A DNA stretch of 64,000 bases from Halanaerobium kushneri (lineage in GTDB: Bacteria > Bacillota > Halanaerobiia > Halanaerobiales > Halanaerobiaceae): assembly GCF_900156285.1 (NCBI RefSeq), contig NZ_FTNC01000013.1:1-64000 (forward strand), read 5' to 3'. Position numbers and translations under genes: made by a program. Under the pieces are notes generated by a model. That model was given only the letters and a program-made list of their open reading frames with translations. It did no database searches and had not been told where the DNA came from. This document shows, piece by piece, positions 57,213-58,675 of the stretch (within the stretch, counting starts at the first letter, position 1; every line of letters begins with the position of its first letter).

Positions 57213-57305
57213 AAAAAAAGGCCCCTATCTAGATAGGGTAAACCCTAAAAAGATAGGAGCCATCAACTGCTATTTAACAGTGGTTAAAGGGGGAGCTCCA
57301 TCCCC
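57213..57305 (-). promoter_or_regulatory. Fluoride riboswitch (crcB type) with terminator platform
   Basis: On the minus strand the aptamer begins GGGGATGGAGCTCCCC (57290-57305), then TTTAACCACTG...CAGTTGATGGCTCCTATC. These match the crcB-motif plan: P1 GGGG/CCCC, loop GGAGC able to form the pseudoknot with GCTCC, and the UGAUGGCUCCUA block. The expression platform is a terminator: GGCTCCTATCT pairs with AGATAGGGGCC, followed by seven T's (57213-57262). It shares the GCTCC strand with the pseudoknot, so fluoride binding should prevent termination and switch the antiporter on. The aptamer starts at the base after the aminotransferase stop codon. Confidence 0.88.
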
Positions 57306-58442
57306 TTAATTCATTTTATTTACAAAAATTTTATGTAATTCAACATTTAACCCAAAACCTAGTTCTCTTAAACTGTGGTCAAATGCTTTTAAAGTTCTGT
57401 AAAGTTTTTCTTCGTAACAATTTTCTCCCATATGACCAATCCGAATTAATTTATCTTCAAACTCTCCTAGAGAAGCTGCAATCATTACATTATGACTTTC
57501 TGTCATCAGCTGATTTAATTCCTGATAACTTATACCTTCTGGTATTTCAATTGCAGTCACTGTGTCAGAATAACCATTTTCAGCATATAAATTTAAATTA
57601 GATTCCTTGATAGCATGTCTGACTGCACTGGCAATTTTACTGTGACGCTTAAATACTTCTTTATCTGCCAGCCACTTATTTAAAGCAGCATCCAGAGCAT
57701 AAATATCACTAACTGCCTGAGTATAGGGAAAATATTTTTCTTCATACCAATTCTGCCAGAGCTGTAAATTAGTATAATAACCTCTAACAGCTGTTTTTCG
57801 GTTATTAACTGCCTCCCAGGCTGCATCACTAACACTCATAAAAGTAAGTCCTGGTGGTACAGAAAGACACTTTTGCGAACCACCGAGTATTATATCAATT
57901 CCCCAGTTATCTACTTCAATAGGTACACCACCAATTGCAGAAACAGAATCTACAACTGATAAAATATTATATTCATTTAATAAACTGGTGATTGCTTCAG
58001 CATTATTTATTACCCCAGTAGGAGTTTCACAGTGAACAAAGGTAGCAAATTTAAAATCATGTTCCTCTGCCAGCTTTGCTTCTAATTTATCGATATCAAT
58101 CTCTTTATTATAGGGGAATTCCCATCTTATAACCTCTGCCCCATAAAGATCAGCAAAATCTGCAAAGCCTCTGCCAAAGATTCCATTGTCCAGGACTAAA
58201 ACTCTATCCCCGGGCTCAATTAGAGAAGCACAGGCAGACTCAAGGCCTAAAATTCCCTCCCCACTCATAATAATCACATCATTTTTTGTCCTTAATATCT
58301 GCTGCAGTTTTGAACTAACATCCAGGTAAAAATCAAAAAAATCAGGATCAAGATCCGGGTTGGTAATTTTGCGGCTCATCGCCCGTCTAACTTCTTCGCT
58401 GACCTCAGTTGGACCGGGTGTCATTATTAATAAATCACTCAC
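57306..58442 (-). CDS. Class V pyridoxal-phosphate aminotransferase (alanine/serine-glyoxylate aminotransferase type)
   Basis: A 378-residue PLP enzyme. The N-terminus LIMTPGPTEVSEEVRRAM is typical of alanine-glyoxylate, serine-pyruvate and ureidoglycine-glyoxylate aminotransferases. The PLP Lys lies in GGSQKCLSVPPGL (about residues 186-198), with FVHCETPTGVINN and VDSVSAIGGVPIEVD. The exact amino donor is not clear. Start at the GTG 58442 (VSDLLIMTPGP) with GGGAGTGA upstream. Its stop codon abuts a fluoride riboswitch. A possible promoter for that switch (TTGAAT at 57338-57343, AATAAA at 57315-57320, 17-nt spacer) lies inside its last codons. Confidence 0.9.
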   Translation of the reverse strand: MSDLLIMTPGPTEVSEEVRRAMSRKITNPDLDPDFFDFYLDVSSKLQQILRTKNDVIIMSGEGILGLESACASLIEPGDRVLVLDNGIFGRGFADFADLYGAEVIRWEFPYNKEIDIDKLEAKLAEEHDFKFATFVHCETPTGVINNAEAITSLLNEYNILSVVDSVSAIGGVPIEVDNWGIDIILGGSQKCLSVPPGLTFMSVSDAAWEAVNNRKTAVRGYYTNLQLWQNWYEEKYFPYTQAVSDIYALDAALNKWLADKEVFKRHSKIASAVRHAIKESNLNLYAENGYSDTVTAIEIPEGISYQELNQLMTESHNVMIAASLGEFEDKLIRIGHMGENCYEEKLYRTLKAFDHSLRELGFGLNVELHKIFVNKMN

Positions 58443-58675
58443 AAAAATCACTCCCACAATTTTACGGTCTAATATAGATTTTATAACTTTTTATAGGAGA
58501 TTGTCAAGCTAATTATTGAAAGAAATAGCCCTAACATTTCTGATTTAAAGTGATTATAGTTAAATAGGAACTACAAACTCTTTTTTTGAAGTATTAATCA
58601 AATTTTAATATTTTGCAGTAAAAATAGCCAGTTTGAACTTTCAGACTAAATATTAAATTTTCTCCGCCAGTAATT

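Follow-up and report, generated by a model that had tools for sequence, protein, structure and literature searches.

The window, that is the whole stretch of 64,000 nucleotides from Halanaerobium kushneri analysed here (contig NZ_FTNC01000013.1), carries on its minus strand a class V aminotransferase gene, a fluoride riboswitch and a cation/proton antiporter gene, in this order (Table 1). The aminotransferase ends with a TAA stop codon at 57308-57306 and the P1 helix of the aptamer begins with the very next base, 57305, just as the initial annotation had placed it; the interval delimited there, 57213-57305, extends from this first P1 base through the end of the terminator U-tract. With 0 nt between the stop codon of this same-strand upstream gene and P1, there is no other terminator ahead of the switch.

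Table 1. Features of the aminotransferase-riboswitch-antiporter locus (positions in the window).
Feature	Position	Strand	Basis or remark
Aminotransferase promoter, TTGACA-18-TAAAAT	58478..58507	-	11/12; consensus match and conservation
Class V aminotransferase ORF, 383 codons as listed	57306..58457	-	PF00266, E 1.1e-21
Fluoride riboswitch aptamer, RF01734, full-length	57247..57314	-	cmscan and pair counts in 12 genus sequences
P1	57305-57302 with 57293-57290	-	part of aptamer
Pseudoknot	57299-57295 with 57260-57256	-	GGAGC pairs with GCUCC
P3	57281-57278 with 57269-57266	-	part of aptamer
Intrinsic terminator, 11-bp stem and inner hairpin, then U-tract	57213..57261	-	fold and pairing in 12 sequences
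Cation/proton antiporter, PF00999	55947..57137	-	Pfam E 1.7e-40; TTG start; Shine-Dalgarno GAGAGGAGAG at 57153-57144

The assignment of the RNA element to the fluoride (crcB) class, for which the initial annotation had proposed a covariance-model search, was borne out by that search: cmscan returned a significant RF01734 match (score 53.6 bits, gathering score 34, E 4.8e-12) covering model positions 1-64 in full. No other copy in the window's genome scored above the cut-off; two further matches, at 16.5 and 15.4 bits, were weak and regarded as noise. Across 12 sequences of the genus, P1 was 100% paired with compensatory changes on both sides, and the four pseudoknot pairs counted were all invariant. 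P3 was paired in only 61%, in an alignment that contains misaligned loops and one decayed copy (from genome G005, see below). The terminator stem was paired in 132 of 132 cells, two of its pairs showing compensatory changes, so neither P1 nor this stem is a product of chance. By its sequence, then, the RNA element itself is an ordinary, canonical fluoride riboswitch.

The terminator overlaps the aptamer, as had also been claimed: its 5' arm contains GCUCC, the 3' half of the pseudoknot, and folding of the sequence from the pseudoknot on gave -27.1 kcal/mol (z -5.56 against shuffled sequences). In the published mechanism of fluoride riboswitches, the pseudoknot and the terminator are mutually exclusive and fluoride protects the pseudoknot (PMC11077080), and the window copy is therefore predicted to be an ON switch. 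Fluoride binding, the direction of switching and read-through in vivo are all predictions made from the sequence.

The downstream antiporter announced by the initial annotation is equally clear, matching PF00999 with 139.5 bits (curated cut-off, 26.2) over profile positions 2-369 of 375. Its orthologues sit behind a fluoride riboswitch in 10 genomes of the genus, and it was the only gene of the window genome recognised in our analysis as fluoride-controlled, judging from sequence. Among the gene classes associated with fluoride riboswitches, Na+/H+ antiporters rank second in frequency (PMC11139923). The exporter CrcB/Fluc (PF02537) was absent from the window genome and from all genus members searched except G011, with positive controls detected, and the window genome encodes a CLC protein with GRIGP instead of the CLC-F signature GREGT/V and with no GNNLI or GMGLI motif. 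We infer a role of the antiporter in ion and pH homeostasis under fluoride, in which it may work against acidification or assist the exit of fluoride. The distribution of CrcB is complementary to that of the cassette: it occurs solely in G011, the sole genus member searched that has neither riboswitch nor antiporter.

A promoter between the terminator and the antiporter was considered and rejected: this stretch gave no consistent match, is variable and contains palindromes in relatives. One palindrome, GTACCnGGTACAAAA...TTTTGTACC, lies between the riboswitch terminator and the antiporter start in several of them (L070, L071, L072, L074 and L075); it had no match within the 64-kb window and two dispersed copies elsewhere in the window's own genome.

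Orthologues of the aminotransferase were found in 11 of the 12 genus genomes, and no NCBIfam equivalog cut-off was reached. The listed GTG start (GTGGGAG; window 58457-58440, minus strand) is probably part of its Shine-Dalgarno sequence; the better fit with a conserved GGGAG suggests that the true start may be the in-frame GTG at 58442 (MSDLLIMTPGPTEV). Further upstream, the core of the aminotransferase promoter does not vary among the eight genomes in which the aptamer is linked to this gene, and its TTGACA hexamer is also present in the three unlinked genomes, that is in 11 of 11. This promoter is thus a probable promoter of the whole unit.

We compared the locus across the 12 genomes of the genus (G000-G011). 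The order aminotransferase-riboswitch-antiporter was found in G000, G001, G003, G004, G007, G008 and G009. These seven and an eighth, G005, place the aptamer 0-1 base behind the stop codon; in G005 the aminotransferase and the riboswitch are present and the antiporter is reduced to a remnant. The G005 aptamer has itself decayed, with an A to C change in the pseudoknot and a broken P3, whereas its terminator stem is full. An intact terminator despite a decayed aptamer is what would be expected if the terminator still served the aminotransferase, and this single case fits that idea. In G006, G010 and G002 the riboswitch and antiporter lie at other places, and G011 has the aminotransferase without riboswitch or antiporter.

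The unlinked genomes also suggest how the arrangement arose. G006 and G010 share synteny with the window ahead of the aminotransferase, and two permease-like genes stand directly behind that gene; in G001, G008 and G009 this pair comes after the antiporter instead, and in G003 its first member is found at the contig end. Since the aminotransferase of G006 and G010 directly precedes the permease pair found behind the antiporter in linked genomes, it is probable that the riboswitch and antiporter arrived as a cassette that inserted at the stop codon, between the aminotransferase and the permease genes. Alternatively, and less simply, the cassette moved away from the aminotransferase site in G006 and G010; with its small number of supported branches, the aminotransferase tree does not tell insertion from loss. 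A different terminator-like hairpin, read by eye, follows the aminotransferase in G006 and G010, and the cassette terminator appears, on sequence comparison, to have replaced the former terminator of this gene.

The initial annotation had left two alternatives: either the extension of the aminotransferase mRNA into the antiporter is under the control of the switch, or a promoter (TTGAAT/AATAAA) is hidden in the last codons of the gene. The comparative evidence favours the former. We consider it likely that one aminotransferase promoter drives both genes and that fluoride decides whether the message continues into the antiporter. RNA polymerase would start at TTGACA-18-TAAAAT, transcribe the aminotransferase and then reach the switch. 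In the absence of fluoride, formation of the terminator hairpin would disrupt the pseudoknot and stop transcription, which would also define the 3' end of the aminotransferase mRNA; once Mg-fluoride is bound, the aptamer would hold the pseudoknot, the terminator would not form and the transcript would run on into the antiporter. What argues for this reading is the aptamer and the terminator with their overlap, the zero gap, the conserved upstream promoter, the lack of a conserved internal promoter and the presence and absence of the cassette among relatives.

The second alternative, that a promoter within the last aminotransferase codons alone drives the riboswitch-antiporter unit, as for most fluoride riboswitches, and that the abutting position merely reflects compaction, seems unlikely to us. 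Riboswitches elsewhere in the genus do have strong promoters of their own 20-33 nt away; four of the five (TTGACT-17-TATAAT) score 11/12 and the remaining one 10. However, the proposed TTGAAT/AATAAA hexamers, 17 nt apart, score 8/12, at background, and are specific to the window species, relatives reading TAGAAC/ACGAAA, TAGCAC/AATGAA, TAGATT/AATGAA and so on. Over the 69 nt that lead to the stop codon, the best sigma-A-type scores in the eight linked genomes were 7-9/12, no higher than in background windows of the same gene (P 0.13-0.99), and the 3' ends of three aminotransferase genes without riboswitch gave an equally good best score (9/12). Linked riboswitches differed in promoter score from those elsewhere (Mann-Whitney p 0.004, 8 versus 6, the sixth coming from another family of the order), as did five abutting placements, one per upstream gene, from 23 others (rank test p 0.003), with relatives that are not independent and classes set after looking. 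In seven of the eight linked genomes, a weak TTGATC/T-16-TAAAAT-like match (8-9/12) precedes the aptamer model by 22-23 nt, a canonical distance, and speaks for a hidden promoter; conservation of the codons for F-D/E and H-K-I can account for it, because the riboswitch-free G011 has an equally good one. Moreover, synonymous change in the last 15 aminotransferase codons is not reduced (36th percentile), and the idea of a hidden constraint on them was dropped since their divergence is ordinary. The scan covered sigma-70-type consensus promoters, and a weak internal promoter, or one of a non-sigma-A type, may still be present.

A further possibility is that the zero gap adds a layer to fluoride-dependent read-through. 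A ribosome stopped at the UAA would cover the first ~12 nt of the aptamer, which correspond to the P1 5' strand and the 5' half of the pseudoknot, and might so couple translation to the fluoride decision. In favour of this, seven of the eight linked genomes show a gap of 0 nt and the remaining one a gap of 1 nt, across aminotransferases down to 85% identity. A single insertion with a conserved aptamer would likewise preserve the gap, however, and other abutting cases leave about 10-24 nt; in Firmicutes, furthermore, the coupling of transcription to translation may be loose. We thus regard such coupling as highly improbable. Nor do we give much credence to the wider scheme in which the terminating ribosome would mask the aptamer 5' strand, so that the translation state of the aminotransferase mRNA would determine whether the antiporter responds to fluoride, and the antiporter would also be the main fluoride-inducible defence in a genus most members of which lack Fluc and recognisable CLC-F exporters.

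The window switch resembles the Bacillus cereus crcB switch and the RF01734 class in its aptamer, pseudoknot and overlapping intrinsic terminator, but unlike a typical member it begins at the stop of a metabolic gene and has no recognisable promoter of its own. Riboswitches that end the transcripts of upstream genes lacking their own terminator are known from Listeria and other species (PMC3179153, PMC8079631, PMC7821165). A close likeness is to the Listeria monocytogenes LysRS (lmo0799-LysRS-lmo0798), which also lies between two same-strand genes, the upstream one having no other terminator, and whose state chooses between a short and a long transcript (PMC3179153, PMC8079631, PMC7821165); the fluoride case is known here from sequence alone. 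The two differ in that lysine turns LysRS off whereas the ligand is predicted to turn the fluoride switch on, and in that LysRS has its own SigB-dependent promoter and an observed co-transcript. The architecture shared by a riboswitch and an upstream transcript is therefore already described, and the window locus adds another case. It offers a clean evolutionary example, in which a riboswitch-gene cassette at the end of an unrelated gene appears to borrow the promoter and replace the terminator of that gene. The consequences of ending upstream transcripts by riboswitches are still to be elucidated (PMC7821165).

The initial annotation had called the position of the switch unusual. The abutment is real, but a survey of relatives and of a sample of 80 public loci showed that it is not unique, other fluoride riboswitches being separated by no more than a few tens of bases from the stop codon of an unrelated upstream gene. 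Their upstream neighbours are a dihydrolipoamide dehydrogenase-type gene, an MgtE gene, a permease gene and a phosphofructokinase-like ORF, and in several of these cases an antiporter gene follows the riboswitch. Among the matches listed, 6 of 46 same-strand upstream ORFs ended within 40 nt; this count comes from a rough sample with ORFs called mechanically, and in high-GC genomes some of these ORFs are probably spurious. Placement at the end of an unrelated gene is thus a recurrent minority pattern. Closest to the window are the dihydrolipoamide dehydrogenase-type (L004, L006), MgtE (L009) and Chlorogloeopsis phosphofructokinase-like (L130) cases, with a same-strand stop 2-16 nt before the model start and an antiporter downstream; because their upstream genes differ and their gap to P1 is larger, they represent independent placements.

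The survey also turned up fluoride riboswitches with other partners. At L076 (G006) and L080 (G002) the riboswitch is followed by a dynamin-like GTPase gene (PF00350), with the antiporter next in G006, and the antiporter locus of G010 seems to retain a remnant; our literature search found no paper linking riboswitch, dynamin and fluoride. A second fluoride riboswitch of G006 (L079) lies upstream of a gene for a MutS-like protein (PF00488), in agreement with an early mention in the literature of DNA repair genes under crcB motifs. Elsewhere in the window, two PyrR binding-site leaders were detected on the minus strand, at 52155-52025 (59.4 bits) and 47347-47259 (57.9 bits), the former shortly before a gene homologous to a carA-like gene of G011.
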